Shown here in pieces: positions 1,050 through 35,058 of a DNA stretch of 58,450 nucleotides. Source of the stretch: Marmoricola sp. (GTDB lineage Bacteria > Actinomycetota > Actinomycetes > Propionibacteriales > Nocardioidaceae); contig JAOPYE010000023.1 in the NCBI GenBank assembly GCA_025964775.1, positions 1 through 58,450 of the forward strand, in the 5' to 3' direction. The notes beneath the pieces are model-generated. The model worked only from the letters and a program-made list of their open reading frames with translations, had not been told where the DNA came from and did no database searches. How positions within the stretch are numbered: position 1 is the stretch's first letter; every line of letters begins with the position of its first letter. The position numbers were made by a program, and so were the translations under genes.

Positions 1050-1120
1050 CGTCACGAGCGTCAGGCTAACCAGAACCCGAAAACGTGTATCAACCGCGTG
1101 GCAGCCGTCTCTGAACCGGT

Positions 1121-1567
1121 GTGAGCAACCAGGACCCGAATCCCCCGCCCAGCGAGCTGAGTCTCGACGACGAGCTCGCCGAGCTCGTCGCCGAAGCACT
1201 CGCCGAGGAGCACGGTGTCTTCACCGATCTCTCCGATCGCTCGTTCGCCGGTGTCCGGAGCATCGCCGCCGTGGGCGCGGCCCAGGAGATCGGCACCTGG
1301 GCGCTGGAGTACCTCGGGCCAGGTTTCCACGTGCAGCTGAGGATCGCGCGCCGCAACCGGCAGGCACGCGTGGATGGCTGGATGTCGCCTGCCCGGCCCA
1401 TGAAGGTCCTGCTCTCCTCACTGCTGCGCCACCCGGTGATCCTCGAGGCCGAGGTCGGTGAGTCCGGCCGCTTCGAGTTCCCGATCGCACCGTCGGGTGC
1501 CTGCCGGATGAGCTTCCTGACCGACACCCATGGCCGCCCCCCGGCGACCCCGCCGTTCTGGATCTGA
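1121..1567 (+). CDS. Small beta-rich protein, paralogue of the protein at 2324-2821
   Basis: This 148-residue acidic protein starts at GTG 1121. From residue 43 on it aligns without large gaps to residues 59-165 of the protein at 2324-2821: shared blocks are AGVRS, EIGTW-LEYLGPGF, DGW--PA-PM, GRFEFP, GACR and the identical C-terminus TPPFWI. The pattern of short strands with a DGW turn and GRFEF strand resembles transthyretin- or carboxypeptidase-regulatory-like beta sandwiches, but that is an inference. The N-terminal 40 residues are acidic and helical (DDELAELVAEALAEE). It has no signal peptide. It lies 154 bp upstream of a sigma factor that heads the S8/CHAT operon, suggesting a regulator, adaptor or protease substrate. 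I know no established function. Confidence 0.75.
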   Translation: MSNQDPNPPPSELSLDDELAELVAEALAEEHGVFTDLSDRSFAGVRSIAAVGAAQEIGTWALEYLGPGFHVQLRIARRNRQARVDGWMSPARPMKVLLSSLLRHPVILEAEVGESGRFEFPIAPSGACRMSFLTDTHGRPPATPPFWI

Positions 1568-1721
1568 TCCGACCGGTCGGCATGGGGAGACCGGGGAATG
1601 GTGCGGACACGCACCTTCCGTGGCGTTCCGGACAAACTGGCCAATGCTGGTGGCGCACCGCTCGCCTCCACTAGATTTCACCTGGCTGTATCAGGAGCAG
1701 GATCCGCGCCTCTACAGGGAT

Positions 1722-2324
1722 GTGATCAACGTTTCCGAAGTGCCTGGAACCCAGGATGCCGAGCCCGGCGCTCGCTGGTCCGCGTCCGCGGCTGCGTTCG
1801 TGGCGTGGCGCGACGGCGATCAGGCGGCGCTCGAGGAACTCGTCCGGCTGCTCAGCCCGACGCTGTGGCAGGTCGCCCGCGCTGCGGGGCTCGACCGCTC
1901 GCACGCCGAGGACGTCGTCCAGACGACCTGGCTGGCCCTGATGGATCACGCGGACTCGATCGCCCACCCGATGGCAGTGGCCGGCTGGTTGTGCACCAGC
2001 GCCCGCCGGGAGAGCTGGCGCGTGAGCAAGCGCGTACGCCGCGAGCGACCCACCGATGACGACGTCCTGCACCCGACGCTGCCCACCGCCGAGGGCCCTG
2101 AGACCGAGGTCGTCCTGGCCGACGACCACCTGCGGCTGCGGCTGTGCCTGGATCGGCTCACCGAGCGCTGCCAGACCCTCCTGCGCATGCTGGCTGCCGG
2201 ACCACGGCCCGAGTACGCCGAAGTCTCGGCCGCGCTCGGCATGGCCGTCGGCAGCATCGGCCCCACGCGCGCCCGCTGCCTGGACAAGCTCCGCCGTGAA
2301 CTGATCTCGGAAGGCAGCCTCTGA
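1722..2324 (+). CDS. RNA polymerase sigma-70-family (ECF-like) factor
   Basis: About 200 residues with a region-2 block (LVRLLSPTLWQVARAAGL...AEDVVQTTWLALMDH) and a C-terminal region-4 helix-turn-helix (LDRLTERCQTLLRML then YAEVSAALGMAVGSIGPTRARCLDKLRREL). It should direct core RNA polymerase to a small regulon. The start is uncertain: GTG 1722 and GTG 1740 are both possible and neither has a clean ribosome-binding site; the frame runs open to 1530. Its stop shares one base with the next start (TGATG), implying translational coupling. No classical zinc-binding anti-sigma factor is encoded next to it; the small protein following is the positional candidate. Confidence 0.85.
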   Translation: MINVSEVPGTQDAEPGARWSASAAAFVAWRDGDQAALEELVRLLSPTLWQVARAAGLDRSHAEDVVQTTWLALMDHADSIAHPMAVAGWLCTSARRESWRVSKRVRRERPTDDDVLHPTLPTAEGPETEVVLADDHLRLRLCLDRLTERCQTLLRMLAAGPRPEYAEVSAALGMAVGSIGPTRARCLDKLRRELISEGSL

Positions 2325-2821
2325 TGGCCGATCCTCTGGACCCGATCTCGGACGACCAGATCCTCGATGCCGTCGCCGGGCTCTGGGAAGCACTCGACCC
2401 GCCGCCGGACGACCTGGCCGAAGGTGTCCTGGCGCGCCTGGACGCCAACGACCTCGATGCCGAGCTGCTGACCCTGGTCGAGTTCGACAAGGAGCTCGCC
2501 GGCGTCCGGTCCACCACGATGCTGCGCGCACCGAACGAGATCGGTACGTGGTCGCTGGAGTACCTCGGGCCAGGCTTCCGGGTCCAGGTGCGCATCTCCC
2601 GCAGCCAGCGTGAGGCTCGCCTCGACGGTTGGGTCGTCCCTGCCCAGCCGATGACGGTCTACCTCACCTCGATGGGCAGCAAGGACAGCACCACCGAAAC
2701 ACAGGTCGGCGACTCGGGTCGCTTCGAGTTCCCGGTGACACCCACCGGAGCTTGCCGACTCACCTTCGTCTCGGATCCCACCAGCACCCGTCCTCTCGTC
2801 ACCCCTCCGTTCTGGATCTGA
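2324..2821 (+). CDS. Small protein of the S8/CHAT operon (helical N-terminus, beta-rich C-terminus)
   Basis: The 165-residue product has an acidic helical N-terminal segment (ILDAVAGLWEALDPPPDDLAEGVLARLD...LLTLVEFDKELAGVR, residues 13-62) and a beta-rich C-terminal domain homologous to the protein at 1121-1567, ending in the same TPPFWI. The gene sits between the sigma factor (1-base overlap) and the S8 protease (10-bp gap), the place an anti-sigma factor usually takes. No transmembrane segment or Cys/His zinc motif is visible, so anti-sigma function is an inference from position only. The beta domain could be a binding module or a cleavage substrate for the neighbouring proteases. Confidence 0.75.
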   Translation: MADPLDPISDDQILDAVAGLWEALDPPPDDLAEGVLARLDANDLDAELLTLVEFDKELAGVRSTTMLRAPNEIGTWSLEYLGPGFRVQVRISRSQREARLDGWVVPAQPMTVYLTSMGSKDSTTETQVGDSGRFEFPVTPTGACRLTFVSDPTSTRPLVTPPFWI

Positions 2822-2831
2822 GGTTCCTGCT

Positions 2832-4460
2832 ATGACCGACGAAAGTTTTGCGCGCCCCGTTCGCGTCAACCTCGAAGGAATCGAGGCCATCCCACCCCAG
2901 GGCGCCGAGGAGACCGAGCGCCAGGCGGCGCTGAAGCAAAAGATCCTCGACGAGGTCGCACCACGGTTCCTCGACCCGAGCACCACGCTCAAGGTCGACG
3001 GGATCTCGGCGCTCCCGACGTTCTACGCCGGCCAGCGTCTGCTGATCGCGCGCCAGTCCGTGACCCCGGAGCTGATCGAGGAGTTCACGACGGTGGCACG
3101 CAATCTCGGATGGGACCTGGAGACCTCCGACGCCACGAACCGCGATCATCCGTCGCACGTGCTGGCCACTGGCGTGGCGCGGGTGCGGCTCACCTCCACG
3201 GACCCGACGGCAACGACCCCGCCCGATGCATGGACGTTCCTCCAGCAGGTACGGGCCGCGCGGGTCGCGGCGGGAGGCTCGCCCACGATTCCTGGGGTGA
3301 GCCTGGACCACCTCCTGGTCATTGGCACCTTCACGTCGGGCCACACCTTCACGTCCGGCCACACCTTCACGTCCGGGCACCCGTGGACCGATGACGGCGG
3401 CGGCGGTGCGGTCGACACCTACGCGTATGCAGGGACCGGCGGTCGCCAGCCCATCGCGTACGTGGGCCCTGACCTTCCGCGCAGGGACGACGGCGAATTC
3501 ACCACCGAGCGGCGCCCGGTCGTTGCCATGCTTGACACCGGGTGCGGGCAGCACCCCTGGCTGACTCCCTTCGTGCGCCGCGACGTGACGATCGACGGAC
3601 AGCTGATCGGGTACGACGACCCGGCCACGGATCCGGAACGACACCCCGACCAATCCGGCCCGCTCGACGGCGACATCGACACCTACTCCGGCCACGGAAC
3701 CTTCGAGGCGGGGCTGGTCCGTCAGGCCTGCCCGGACGCCGACCTCATCGCCTGGCGCATCATGCCCTCGGCCGGACCGATCACCGAAGGCGACCTGATC
3801 GACGCCCTGACCCACATTGCCGAGCTCGCTCGTCGCCACCGCGCCGGCGAGCCCGGCGGCGAGGCGATTGACGTCCTGAACCTGTCGCTCGGGTACTACC
3901 ACGAGACCATCGACGACCTGAAGACCGACCCGAAGATCTACGACTCCCTCAAGATCCTGGGCCAGAACGGTGTCACCGTGATCTGCTCGGCGGGCAACGA
4001 CTCCACGACCCGGCCGTGCTTCCCGGCTGCGTTCTCACCGTGGTCCAAGGGTCAGGGGCCTTACACCGTCGATCCGAACATCGTGCCGGTCGTCTCGGTC
4101 GGAGCCCTCAACCCGAACGGCAGCGACGCCCTGTTCACCAATGCCGGGCCCTGGGTGCGTGCGCATGCGGTCGGTGCGTCGGTCATGAGCACGGTACCGC
4201 CGTACTTCCAGGGCGGTTACCTGGCGGCCGCTGAGGTCGAGCTCGACAGGCGGACACGGCAGTCGATCGATCCGGACGACTACCGCGGCGGCTTCGGGCT
4301 CTGGAGCGGCACCTCGTTCGCGGCTCCGATCTTCGCCGGCCAGGTCGCCGAGGAACTGGGGCCGATCCCGAAGAATGCCGACGATGCCAAGGCCGCGGTG
4401 GCCCGGGCGTGGGACGCAGTGGTCAAGGGATCCGACCCACACCCCAAGCTGCTGCCGTGA
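2832..4460 (+). CDS. S8 family (subtilisin-like) serine peptidase, cytoplasmic type
   Basis: A 542-residue protein with a complete subtilase triad: Asp235 in VAMLDTGCG, His288 in YSGHGTFEAG and Ser495 in SGTSFAAP, with oxyanion Asn389 in CSAGND. There is no signal peptide or inhibitor-type I9 propeptide, so the enzyme probably acts inside the cell. The first 200 residues form a family-specific N-terminal region containing the sequence TFTSGH repeated three times (residues 166-183), encoded by an 18-bp tandem repeat. It lies 10 bp after the small protein gene and 6 bp before the CHAT gene, so two proteases are co-expressed. In similar actinobacterial loci S8 and CHAT proteins also pair; targets are unknown. 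Confidence 0.92.
   Translation: MTDESFARPVRVNLEGIEAIPPQGAEETERQAALKQKILDEVAPRFLDPSTTLKVDGISALPTFYAGQRLLIARQSVTPELIEEFTTVARNLGWDLETSDATNRDHPSHVLATGVARVRLTSTDPTATTPPDAWTFLQQVRAARVAAGGSPTIPGVSLDHLLVIGTFTSGHTFTSGHTFTSGHPWTDDGGGGAVDTYAYAGTGGRQPIAYVGPDLPRRDDGEFTTERRPVVAMLDTGCGQHPWLTPFVRRDVTIDGQLIGYDDPATDPERHPDQSGPLDGDIDTYSGHGTFEAGLVRQACPDADLIAWRIMPSAGPITEGDLIDALTHIAELARRHRAGEPGGEAIDVLNLSLGYYHETIDDLKTDPKIYDSLKILGQNGVTVICSAGNDSTTRPCFPAAFSPWSKGQGPYTVDPNIVPVVSVGALNPNGSDALFTNAGPWVRAHAVGASVMSTVPPYFQGGYLAAAEVELDRRTRQSIDPDDYRGGFGLWSGTSFAAPIFAGQVAEELGPIPKNADDAKAAVARAWDAVVKGSDPHPKLLP
3327..3380 (+). repeat. Three tandem 18-bp repeats inside the S8 protease gene
   Basis: Three adjacent copies of an 18-bp unit encode Thr-Phe-Thr-Ser-Gly-His each. 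The copies differ only by synonymous third-position changes (TCG/TCC, GGC/GGG). The repeat is a multiple of three, so copy-number change would keep the frame and alter a His-rich linker just before the catalytic domain. Confidence 0.95.
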
Positions 4461-4466
4461 GGTCGC

Positions 4467-6905
4467 GTGGACGACGCTGAACACCTCCACCAGCTGGCGG
4501 TCGCTGCCGGACGCGAGAACAGCTACCCGCGAGCCCTCGAGCTCGTCGCGGAGGCGCGCGCCCGGACGACCGACCCGAACCTGCTGGCCCGACTCGATGT
4601 CACGGCGGCGTACGGCGAGGCGGAGACCGGCAATCTTGCTCGAGCCATCGCGTTGTGCGAGGGGGTCCTCGAAAGCGACGGCGTCGAACCGCTCACGATC
4701 GGCCTCGCGCTCGGTCAGCTCGGGTTGCTGCACACCCGCAACGGCGATGCAGCCGAAGCCGAGCGGCGGCTCACCGCGGCGATCGCCCAACTCACGGGAG
4801 TACCGGAACATCTCGGCGTCGCGTCGCTGAACCGCGGCGTCATGTTCCTGGAGCACGGGAACGCTGACCGGGCGGCCGAGGACTTCACGACCGCGGCCGA
4901 GCAGTTCGCCCTGGCCGGCATCCCGACCGAACGCGCGAAAGCGATCTACAACCTCGGCTGCGCCCAGCTCCAGCGCAACGACCTGATCGCCGCGATGAAG
5001 GGGATGGACGAGGCCGGCCCGACCCTGGCGGCGCTGTCGCCGGTCAACAGCGCGATCGTCGCCCAGGACCGTGCGGAGATGCTCGTCGCCGCCGGGCGGG
5101 CACACGAGGCGATCGAGGCGCTCCAGTCCGCTGCGGCAGCCTTCGGACGCGAGGGTCTGCGACGCTTCCAGGCCGAGTGCGAGTTCGACCTGGCGCGCAC
5201 GCTGCTGGCCCAGGACCCGGCTCGCAGCAAGTCGGTGGCCCAGCACGCTGCGCGGGTGTTCGGCGCGCAGGGCAGCACGTCGTGGGCGGCTCGAGCCAAG
5301 GCCATCGCGATCGAAGCCGAGATCCAGGACGGCGCCACGGGCAAGGATCTGCTCACACGCGGGGATGTCCTGGCCACCGAGCTCACCGGCTCCGGCCTGC
5401 GACCGGAGGCGCACCGGCTCGGTTTGAACCTCGCCCGGCTCGCACTGCGGCGCAAGGACCTGCCCGGCGCCGCCTTACGGCTCGCCAAGATCCCGGTCAC
5501 GACCGACTCGGCGATCACCACCCGTCTGCTCGCACGCGAGGTCCGCGCCGAATTGGCCGCCGCCCGCGGTCAGGACGGCCGGGCCCGGATGTATGCCCGC
5601 AACGGCCTGGCCGAGCTCCACGCCTGGCAGGCGACCTTCGGCAGTCTGGACCTGCAGACCTCGGCTGCCGGCCACGGGCAGCACCTGGCCCGTCTCGGCC
5701 TGCGCGCGGCGATGCACGACGGCAACCCCGAGGTGGTCTTCGAGTGGTCCGAACGCGCGCGAGCCCTCGCCTCCAGGGTCTCGGCGCTCCGCCCTCCCCC
5801 GGACCCCGAGCTCGCTGCCGACCTCACCGCCCTGCGGGTCGCCGACCCCAAGGACCTGGCGACCCGGCGGATGCTGCGCGACCGGATCCGTGCACACAGC
5901 TGGTTCGCGGCGCAGGGCACGATCGGCGAGCCCACCGATCTCGCCACGCTGCAGGCCAGGCTGGCCGCTGACGACAGTGCCCTGATCGCTCATGTCGTCC
6001 TCGACGGCACCCTGACGGCGCTCGCGGCAACCGGGACCGACGCTGCCGTGATCCCGCTCGGTGACGCTGTCGCCGTTCGTACGCTTCTCGACCGGATCGC
6101 TGCCGACCTGGACTTCGCGGCCCAGAACCGGGACGGCGGCATGGCGGCAGCGATCCGCACATCGCTTCGCGCCGATCTGGCCCAGCTCGCCGATGTCCTG
6201 GTCCGGCCGGTGCTCGCGACCGTCGGTTACCGCCGTCTGGTGCTCACGCCCTCGGCGCTGCTCTCCGGTACTCCGTGGACCGAGCTGCCCGGACTCATCG
6301 GACGACCGATCACGGTGCCGACCTCGGCGACCCGGTGGGTCCAGCAGGCGGCCGAGCCGATCGCTGCGGTTCGTGAGGTCGGCTTCCTCGCAGGGCCACG
6401 ACTCTCACGCAGCCAGGAGGAGGTCCAGCGCGCCAAGCAATCCTGGCCACGAGGTCATGTCCTGGGCGGTGACGAGGCCGACGCCGCCCGTGCCGGCTGG
6501 CTTGCGGCTCGCGTCGATCTGCTGCACATCGCGGGACACGGCAGCCACCCCGGCGACCACCCGCTTTTCGCCGCAGTCGAGCTGGCCGACGGACCCTGGT
6601 TCGGGCACGACATCGACCTTCTTCCGCGGGTCCCTGAGGTGGTGGTGCTGTCGGCCTGCGACCTCGGCCAGATCTCGGTCGTGCACGGCGAGGAGTCGGT
6701 CGGGATGAGCGCGGTCTGGCTCCATACCGGCACCCGCGCGGTCGTCTCCTCACTCGCACTGCTCTCCGATGACCTGGCCTGCGAGGTGTTCGCCTCCTGG
6801 CACCACCTCGTCTCGACCGGCGTCGCTCCGGCGGACGCCCTGGCCCAGGTCAGCGCCGCCACCGACGACGTACTGCCGCTGCTGTGCTTCGGCGCCGGCT
6901 GGTGA
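4467..6905 (+). CDS. CHAT domain protein with N-terminal TPR-like repeats
   Basis: The 812-residue product starts at GTG 4467. Residues 1 to about 430 are alpha-helical with TPR-like repeats (for example ALGQLGLLHTRNGDAAEAER and ASLNRGVMFLEHGNADRAAEDF). The C-terminal half is a CHAT domain, a caspase/separase-related cysteine protease: His691 in LLHIAGHGSH and Cys731 in VVLSACDLGQ form the expected dyad, and the protein ends in CFGAGW. TPR-CHAT proteins are known effectors, for example the Csx29 protease of type III-E CRISPR systems; here no CRISPR locus is present. Being last in an operon with a sigma factor and an S8 protease, it may act in a regulated proteolytic switch. Substrate and trigger are unknown. 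Confidence 0.9.
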   Translation: MDDAEHLHQLAVAAGRENSYPRALELVAEARARTTDPNLLARLDVTAAYGEAETGNLARAIALCEGVLESDGVEPLTIGLALGQLGLLHTRNGDAAEAERRLTAAIAQLTGVPEHLGVASLNRGVMFLEHGNADRAAEDFTTAAEQFALAGIPTERAKAIYNLGCAQLQRNDLIAAMKGMDEAGPTLAALSPVNSAIVAQDRAEMLVAAGRAHEAIEALQSAAAAFGREGLRRFQAECEFDLARTLLAQDPARSKSVAQHAARVFGAQGSTSWAARAKAIAIEAEIQDGATGKDLLTRGDVLATELTGSGLRPEAHRLGLNLARLALRRKDLPGAALRLAKIPVTTDSAITTRLLAREVRAELAAARGQDGRARMYARNGLAELHAWQATFGSLDLQTSAAGHGQHLARLGLRAAMHDGNPEVVFEWSERARALASRVSALRPPPDPELAADLTALRVADPKDLATRRMLRDRIRAHSWFAAQGTIGEPTDLATLQARLAADDSALIAHVVLDGTLTALAATGTDAAVIPLGDAVAVRTLLDRIAADLDFAAQNRDGGMAAAIRTSLRADLAQLADVLVRPVLATVGYRRLVLTPSALLSGTPWTELPGLIGRPITVPTSATRWVQQAAEPIAAVREVGFLAGPRLSRSQEEVQRAKQSWPRGHVLGGDEADAARAGWLAARVDLLHIAGHGSHPGDHPLFAAVELADGPWFGHDIDLLPRVPEVVVLSACDLGQISVVHGEESVGMSAVWLHTGTRAVVSSLALLSDDLACEVFASWHHLVSTGVAPADALAQVSAATDDVLPLLCFGAGW

Positions 6906-7089
6906 GAATTCACCGCCCGGGGTGTATCACCGGGAACTGACGCGCCTCTTCACCGCTGCAGGGCGGATTCACCCGGGACGGCGGTTGGGGGTTTCGACCT
7001 CAGTCCCGCGTGAACGACTCCTGACGGCGAGGCGGGTCGGACACACAGATGTCGGGCCCGTCTCGTCCGCCGCGCCTGCTGGTCGTTGC
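6906..7089. other. Intergenic gap between convergent genes
   Basis: 184 bp between the CHAT gene and the convergent acyl-CoA dehydrogenase gene. I see no gene and no strong hairpin with a T-tract in it. It probably holds the transcription ends of both flanking units. Confidence 0.5.
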
Positions 7090-34532: not shown

Positions 34533-34973
34533 TCAGGCGCTCTTGCGCAGGACCGCCTCGCCGACCAGGGCGCGGAAGTACGGCTGGGTGTCGTGGAGGA
34601 GCTCGAAGGCCTCCCTGCTCAGGTGCAGCACCGTCGCCTCCGAGCGGGTCACCACGGTCGCGGTGCGCAGCCGACGGTGCACGATGCCGAGCTCGCCCAG
34701 GATCTCGCCGGGCCGACAGCGGCCGAGGTCCACACCCCCACGGTGGACCTCGACATCGCCGTCGAGCAGGACATAGGCCTTCTCCGGGGCAGTGTGCTCG
34801 TGGAGCAGTGCCCAACCCGGCTTGATCATCACCACGTGACCGGCCTCGACCAGGGCGGCGAGCACGGCACCCGGAGCGTCGGTGAAACTCGGAACGCTGC
34901 CGAGCAGCCGCATCTCGGCGCGGAAGTCACCGCGAGGTGGCGGGCAGTACGTGGTCATGAATCGCTTCGACAT
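34533..34973 (-). CDS. Cyclic nucleotide-binding domain protein
   Basis: A 146-residue protein that is essentially one cyclic-nucleotide-binding domain: HVVMIKPGWALLHEHTAPEKAYVLLDGDVEVHRGGVDLGRCRPGEILGELGIVHRRLRTATVVTRSEATVLHLSREAF, where the PGEILGELGI...RTATV phosphate-binding cassette (Glu and Arg contacts) is intact. There is no helix-turn-helix, so it is not a Crp-type regulator and may be a cAMP-responsive adaptor. The start is ATG 34973 (AAGGGG upstream) or 34958. A cyclase that could supply the ligand is encoded at 10525-11541. Confidence 0.85.
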   Translation of the reverse strand: MSKRFMTTYCPPPRGDFRAEMRLLGSVPSFTDAPGAVLAALVEAGHVVMIKPGWALLHEHTAPEKAYVLLDGDVEVHRGGVDLGRCRPGEILGELGIVHRRLRTATVVTRSEATVLHLSREAFELLHDTQPYFRALVGEAVLRKSA

Positions 34974-35058
34974 CGCCGGTACCCCTTACGAAAGCGGCTG
35001 GTACGAGTGCGGGTGTTGCCCCTCAAGAGCAGGCTCGCCGGGTCCTGATACATCGGCC

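Follow-up and report, generated by a model that had tools for sequence, protein, structure and literature searches.

A sigma factor operon encoding a small protein, a subtilisin with a hexapeptide array and a TPR-CHAT protease: a possible peptide-gated proteolytic switch

What could two intracellular proteases do in one operon together with a sigma factor and a small protein? The question is raised by a stretch of 58,450 nucleotides (nt) from Marmoricola sp. (GenBank assembly GCA_025964775.1, contig JAOPYE010000023.1), which as a whole we call the window. An earlier description made without database searches, the sequence-only reading, had reported four contiguous genes for a sigma factor, a small protein, an S8 subtilisin and a tetratricopeptide repeat (TPR)-CHAT protease, and these are present, with gaps of -1, 10 and 6 bp. 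It made no mention of the hexapeptide array inside the subtilisin, of a promoter-like motif shared by several sites, or of a paralogue of the small protein. Our answer, given with a little less than even confidence, is that this operon, conserved in soil actinobacteria, may be a peptide-gated proteolytic switch for the sigma factor. Such a switch is predicted because the hexapeptide sequence changes in step with part of the CHAT protein. The principal features are as follows.

1722..2324, + strand: extracytoplasmic function (ECF)-type sigma factor, 200 amino acids (aa) from GTG 1722; the frame is open from 1530
2324..2821, + strand: small protein, 165 aa; its start overlaps the sigma stop by 1 nt
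2832..4460, + strand: S8 subtilisin, 542 aa, Asp235/His288/Ser495, without signal peptide by hydropathy
3327..3380, + strand: hexapeptide array TFTSGH x3 in S8, residues 166-183, in the linker that joins the N-terminal region to the catalytic domain
4467..6905, + strand: TPR-CHAT protease, 812 aa; TPR superhelix, then CHAT domain, His691/Cys731

In NCBIfam and Pfam searches the sigma factor matched TIGR02937, the S8 protein PF00082 (69.4 bits) and the CHAT protein PF12770 (56.9 bits), all above cut-off; the N-terminal region of S8 had no Pfam match. The likely sigma start is GTG 1722, placed as in relatives and behind the promoter-like motif. The catalytic residues assigned in the sequence-only reading are correct and intact. 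The S8 triad with its oxyanion Asn (Asp235/His288/Asn389/Ser495) and the His-Cys dyad of CHAT (His691/Cys731) are invariant in 86/86 complete loci, a set that includes the window and from which loci with broken or short S8 or CHAT were dropped. Its statement that neither protease has a signal peptide also holds for the window proteins, where hydropathy finds no such peptide and no membrane segment.

Perfect tandem hexapeptides in 2 to 11 copies occur in 75/79 S8 proteins, between the N-terminal region and the catalytic domain. A looser search gave 76 S8 proteins with arrays, 75 of them with Pro, and 60 distinct units. The units are alike within one protein and different between species, and follow the pattern hydrophobic-x-x-[SPGT]-[NH]-Pro, with a large hydrophobic or aromatic residue after Pro in 53/60 units. 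Between adjacent units the synonymous difference pS was 0.684 and the nonsynonymous difference pN 0.0455 (pN/pS 0.066), so that residues appear to have been kept while synonymous sites drifted, although the search for arrays by residue identity itself depresses pN. Units of the type ...Pro-Phe/Tyr/Leu fit the cleavage preference of subtilisins. Since most units read in this way, we infer that S8 may cut its own array and release hexapeptides.

How closely does the array follow the other parts of the operon? From 65 extra loci fetched we discarded 2 without sigma and 31 duplicates of loci already in the set; the length filter removed one of the other 32, and the 31 that were kept brought the covariation set to 86 loci and 69 arrays. 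The comparison was made on 33 disjoint locus pairs with sigma identity of at least 0.70; L303, whose sigma was mis-extracted (identities 0.21-0.29), falls outside the pairs by this threshold and is counted in the sigma row of the nearest-neighbour comparison. Array divergence tracks CHAT residues 1-240. The rank correlation (rho) with array difference was -0.79 for the N-terminal TPRs of CHAT (TPR1), -0.09 for the small protein and -0.21 for sigma. The difference between TPR1 and CHAT-domain identity was +0.044 in 9 same-array pairs versus -0.215 in 24 different-array pairs (p = 1.7e-5). By TPR1, the nearest neighbour shares the array in 27/28 cases; by other regions, in 17 to 22. We also examined triplets in which the array-sharing partner is the more distant one by sigma, small protein and CHAT domain, the tested region being left out of the criteria. 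TPR1 sided with the array-sharing partner in 31/44 triplets, which stem from only 5 pairs; the corresponding counts were 12/44 for the S8 catalytic part (S8cat), 3/44 each for TPR2 and S8pro, 5/49 for the small protein and 10/54 for the CHAT domain. The array and the N-terminal TPRs thus probably recognise each other, as far as these sequence comparisons indicate. Within one genus, the arrays FTRGAP and LTRGNP (L304/L050 and L308/L309) cut across sigma relationships, and L050 and L309 are 98% identical in sigma and 39% in TPR1.

The same pattern might arise by linkage only, if S8 and the 5' part of the CHAT gene were repeatedly swapped as one DNA block, driven by recombination or by diversifying pressure from elsewhere. 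The comparison of the window with its closest relative (L057) speaks for such replacement. Sigma is 98% and the small protein 99% identical there, and the flanking DNA is mostly 90-97% identical on both sides (one end bin 0.82), while amino acid identity drops as one block in S8 (N-terminal region 30%, catalytic part 64%) and CHAT 1-360 (52-56%). CHAT 361-812, at 81-83%, is likewise more diverged than flanks, sigma and small protein. S8cat and S8pro also track the array. However, in the triplets TPR1 follows the array better than does S8cat, the part encoded between the two. Partial correlations favour TPR1 in two of three pairings: in the first, TPR1 given S8cat was -0.56 (p 0.0006) and S8cat given TPR1 0.03, and in the second, TPR1 given S8cat was -0.65 (p 0.0002). 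Residues within arrays are also kept while synonymous sites differ. We regard linked replacement as the whole explanation as quite unlikely.

Another possibility is that array and TPR1 do meet but that no ligand is released. The array would then be a multivalent docking and cleavage site in an S8 zymogen: CHAT would bind it by TPR1 and cut off the N-terminal region, and the activated S8 would destroy the small protein or other targets. Such a cascade accounts for the co-divergence of array and TPR1, for the position of the array between N-terminal region and catalytic domain, and for the variable number of perfect copies. It leaves the large hydrophobic or aromatic residue after Pro unexplained, and the inhibitory prodomain role that it gives to the S8 N-terminal region is conjectural, as this region matches nothing in Pfam. 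We consider it somewhat unlikely.

Several observations weigh against a peptide gate and have to be set beside the evidence for it. S8cat (rho -0.68), S8pro (-0.54) and TPR2 (-0.37) also track the array over the 33 pairs; in the third pairing TPR1 given S8cat reached only -0.30 (p = 0.051); and sigma itself sides with the array-sharing partner in 49/93 triplets. As array, S8 and TPR1 lie next to one another, part of the signal comes from block replacement. The first test failed: a partial Mantel test of array against CHAT, strong at first (0/300), was dropped as proof after control columns had been run. These reached the signal in 10 to 35 of 200 for the whole TPR part and in 2/2000 for CHAT residues 1-240, a range chosen after a scan; allowing for that choice of range, entropy-matched control columns reached it in 84/1000. 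The Mantel tests were replaced by disjoint pairs because the signal was not significant after this correction. Nor are the pair tests independent of the exploration, since residues 1-240 were picked there and the tests reuse 55 loci, about 54 of them from it. The new loci alone (13 pairs, one of them same-array) point in the same direction and are not significant; they are underpowered, with rho -0.29 for TPR1 (p 0.33) and -0.46 for S8cat (p 0.11). The arrays of the window and L294 differ by one residue, yet their TPR1 identity is 0.55. In different-array pairs, substitutions are more frequent on B helices (0.45) than on A helices (0.32); in same-array pairs there is little change on the A helices of repeats 1-6 (0.09). 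The window's own array is atypical, with 3 copies of TFTSGH and without Pro, and in the N. luteus group the arrays (HNxPxP) are without the hydrophobic residue expected for subtilisin cleavage. In structure comparison the N-terminal TPRs of our CHAT model superpose on PlcR (residues 72-286, 2.4 A), which is weak evidence because many TPR proteins score alike. Finally, the module proteins look cytosolic: by hydropathy, no signal peptide or membrane segment was found in the first 70 residues of 86 small, 86 CHAT and 85 S8 proteins of the 86 loci.

What is the part of the small protein? As would be expected of an anti-sigma factor gene, it is conserved directly after sigma, and 61/73 loci offer a start codon for it that has a 4- or 1-nt overlap with the sigma stop. 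In four genomes (L095, L097, L104, L107) sigma sits away from S8-CHAT, and there, as in all 7 sigma loci examined, a small-protein open reading frame (ORF) follows or overlaps the sigma frame; three of these four genomes have a small protein at S8-CHAT as well. Because it adjoins sigma after such a split and is yet retained beside the proteases, the small protein is tied to both sides. L111 was not counted as a case of sigma in trans, as it starts at a contig edge and the sigma contig of its genome ends in an S8 start, nor was L126, a lone S8 in a genome that holds L063. The possible regulator of the sequence-only reading is thus tightly coupled to sigma, even where the proteases lie elsewhere. 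Its AlphaFold model (mean pLDDT 78) has two N-terminal helices, a low-confidence linker (44-58) and a beta-sandwich. Pfam and NCBIfam gave no match to a known anti-sigma domain for it, a fold search gave no match at E < 0.001 and mostly Ig/FN3-like ones above that, and its profile run against PDB sequences retrieved no Csx30 chain. We lean towards the view that it is an inhibitor of sigma.

This differs from the proposal in the available parts of a review of ECF sigma factors (PMC8999054), in which the ECF54 group has no anti-sigma factor, the proteases degrade sigma and keep the system off, and the third gene encodes a further proteolytic enzyme. The proposal has that published statement in its favour. 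The third protein, though, weakly matches PF13620, a carboxypeptidase regulatory-like fold and not a peptidase, in 13/56 members, and it adjoins sigma even when the proteases are elsewhere. We therefore consider the proposal very unlikely for this operon; a PF13620-type match probably accounts for the label 'carboxypeptidase' in the review.

For the peptide-gated switch, the steps may be arranged as follows. Hexapeptides released by S8 from its own array would be bound, in species-specific manner, by the N-terminal TPRs of CHAT, and binding would activate the CHAT protease. The small protein would hold sigma through its helix pair until active CHAT cuts it and sigma is freed. Free sigma would transcribe its own operon and the gene or RNA after CHAT, closing a positive feedback. 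All catalytic and binding steps here are inferred, and the chain as a whole, from S8 cut to sigma feedback, is somewhat more doubtful than the general idea of a switch. Equally speculative is the notion that the lineage-specific array of the subtilisin is a signal and the TPRs of the caspase-like protease its receptor, both diverging as allele pairs ('pherotypes') that gate sigma. If this is true, then relatives whose sigma and partner proteins are nearly the same would differ in their peptide language.

Promoter-like sites of one type recur at the locus, which also has a fifth gene.

1087..1111, + strand: site GTATCA-N16-CTC, promoter-like, before the paralogue gene; position weight matrix (PWM) score 14.9; GTG start 9 nt past CTC
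1121..1567, + strand: gene for a paralogue of the small protein, 148 aa, 53% identity to it
1688..1712, + strand: site GTATCA-N16-CTC, promoter-like, of the sigma operon; PWM score 21.9
6924..6948, + strand: another promoter-like site of this type, 18 nt past the CHAT stop; PWM score 20.8
6957..7072, + strand: putative short non-coding transcript with strong terminal hairpin; ends estimated by eye

The motif GTATC[AT]-N16/17-CTCNT is common to sigma upstreams (56/71, versus a shuffled mean of 0.04), and in most cases a GTG start follows it within a few nt. The sigma site of the window lies outside this stricter pattern, as one of 15 misses, because it reads CTCTA. With a weight matrix built from the motif sites, the sigma site was recovered in 60/72 loci. 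Over 1.28 Mb the matrix gave 63 further sites, versus 1 in controls that were reversed or complemented; one of the 63 (L122) looks like a sigma site set further off. In the split-sigma genomes L095, L097, L104 and L107 a motif site stands before the S8 or small gene. The paralogue at 1121-1567, behind a motif of the same type, keeps the beta-domain; the N-terminal helix pair is not recognisable there. Extra small-protein copies upstream of sigma also occur in L056 and L057, and one stands directly behind a motif in L174.

By the weight-matrix list, a motif site lies at most 150 nt past the CHAT stop in 32/80 loci, in the window at 6924. Behind it are an I42 chagasin family protein (L080), a papain-family C1 protease (L114), proteins of about 100 aa without assigned family in 13 Nocardioides loci and a few other genes (L061, L076); elsewhere, as in the window, there is no convincing ORF. 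The Nocardioides proteins were considered as chagasin-like inhibitors and the idea was rejected: of 14 aligned, L080 alone passes the I42 cut-off. The I42 family had no match in the window's genome. Behind the window's own site there is no ORF of at least 30 aa with an ATG or GTG start, and no Rfam family reached its cut-off in this stretch, for which we predict a short RNA rich in hairpins. Small hairpins with runs of at least 4 G in the loop occur in the regions that have no convincing ORF (window, L073, L089-L091, L099, L124-L134). In 25 post-CHAT sequences we counted 31 such hairpins versus 16.6 +/- 3.7 after shuffling (maximum 27), a modest enrichment; 20/25 sequences have one, versus a shuffled mean of 12.1.

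In single relatives, motif sites also precede genes for an M4 protease (L179), other S8 proteases (L185, L204) and pyridoxal phosphate (PLP)-dependent decarboxylases of the Orn/DAP/Arg type (L177, L109 5451-7634, L113 5818-7563); in L109 the decarboxylase gene runs into the sigma gene. A genome-wide regulon was sought in the window's genome and rejected: with 31 sites vs 21 in controls, the loose motif shows no clear enrichment, and single distant sites are for this reason not claimed. Two may be recorded as observations. A cyclic nucleotide-binding domain gene (PF00027) at 34533-34973 (-) of the window has a sigma-type site upstream, at 35021-35054 (-), with score 29.8. In the window's genome (L151/L170, G000:C23:25493-25529) and in a genus relative (L172, G349:C19), one and the same short leaderless frame follows the strict motif; in the former, a protein of 140 aa that matches nothing in Pfam begins just behind it.

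Is this gene set a stable unit? At the level of the order, a relative of the small protein was found in 74/293 genomes, and at that of the class in 79/296 genomes and 43/114 genera. All four genes are present in each of the 20 loci fetched across the ranking of the 74 genomes; in 17 the order is that of the window, and in 3 S8 comes first. A scan of GTDB seeded by S8 alone (80 loci of 448 S8 relatives) gave all four genes in 71/80 loci, 70 as sigma-small-S8-CHAT and 1 as sigma-small-CHAT-S8; 9 were partial, and no fused sigma-small protein was seen among the 80. The survey that the sequence-only reading had called for thus agrees with its suggestion of one conserved module, and the lack of co-occurrence across genomes that would have refuted it is not seen. 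L052, L053 and L054 represent a second, more distant form with S8 before sigma, and the family also includes many more divergent CHAT proteins, seen as lower-scoring matches. In L078 (CHAT) and L083 (S8) a gene is split between two reading frames, by assembly error or decay.

The invasion trigger that it also suggested gains no such support. A mobile or defence island was rejected: PADLOC gives a weak generic subtilase match only, plasmid and phage records hold no match to the small protein, and L057 has the same chromosomal flanks as the window. A related reading is an immunity or cell-death module, Craspase-like in purpose, in which CHAT would be activated by infection and proteases would be armed through the sigma response. 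In its favour, the CHAT model is closest to separase and Csx29 in structure comparison, and sigma-type sites stand before the C1, M4 and other S8 protease genes of L114, L179, L185 and L204. Besides the plasmid and phage result and the shared flanks, the search of the window's genome for RAMP family proteins, which found none, speaks against it. We find such a module unlikely; it is compatible with a peptide-gated switch, and both can be true.

If the peptide-gated switch is real, caspase-like proteases of bacteria would be controlled by short peptides that the system itself encodes, with alleles that match, and a single operon would link peptide signalling to proteolytic cascades and to transcription. 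A mechanism would be given to a sigma group known until now by its gene neighbours, and natural allele pairs would be at hand for direct binding tests. Such pairs might diversify for kin recognition, to escape inhibitors or to avoid crosstalk.

Which known systems are comparable? Separase, the eukaryotic cohesin protease, shares the helical-repeat superhelix and the caspase-like protease fold, and has no sigma or S8 partner. The RRNPP peptide receptors, such as PlcR with PapR, combine a TPR receptor with helix-turn-helix (HTH) output and a secreted pro-peptide. The TPR fold matches, whereas the TPRs here are fused to a CHAT domain in place of an HTH, and the peptide would come from a protease linker.

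Pherotype loci such as ComQXPA, so far as the excerpts of PMC4008528 describe them, have a variable signal and sensor N-terminal part and a conserved sensor output domain. Co-divergence of a putative signal, the array, with a sensor domain in conserved surroundings is found here as well. In ComQXPA, however, the pair is a ComX precursor and a membrane histidine kinase, while here it would be a cytosolic protease array and a CHAT protease; the module proteins have no signal peptide or membrane segment and no kinase among their Pfam matches.

By its gene neighbourhood, the sigma factor of the window may be of ECF54 type. The accessible portion of PMC8999054 lists subtilase, CHAT and 'carboxypeptidase' as conserved neighbours of ECF54 sigma factors, the same gene set if the small protein is their 'carboxypeptidase', and so the statement of the sequence-only reading that this set was undescribed has to be amended. 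That portion proposes proteolysis without an anti-sigma factor and does not mention an array, a promoter or a role for the partner. It is the sole paper among the matches listed that names both ECF54 and ECF sigma factor, and titles and abstracts among the open-access matches listed do not describe the array, its link to CHAT or the promoter motif. New here are the motif GTATCA-N16-CTCCT before sigma and after CHAT (ECF classification work may hold the promoter motif of the group), the adjacency of sigma and small protein in split genomes, the hexapeptide array and its co-divergence with the TPRs, the neighbourhood itself having been reviewed already.

The type III-E CRISPR protease Craspase with its CASP sigma is the other relevant case; there, according to the sections available of PMC10028731, Csx29 cuts Csx30, an inhibitor of CASP-sigma. 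Common to both systems are the TPR-CHAT protease fold of Csx29, seen in our CHAT model, an ECF-type sigma and a further protein encoded beside it. For the Cas7-11 (RAMP) effector no counterpart was found here, with 0 PF03787 matches in the window's genome (94% complete). Craspase has an RNA input and Csx30; the operon of the window adds an S8 protease with its array, and the array peptide may take the place of the RNA input.

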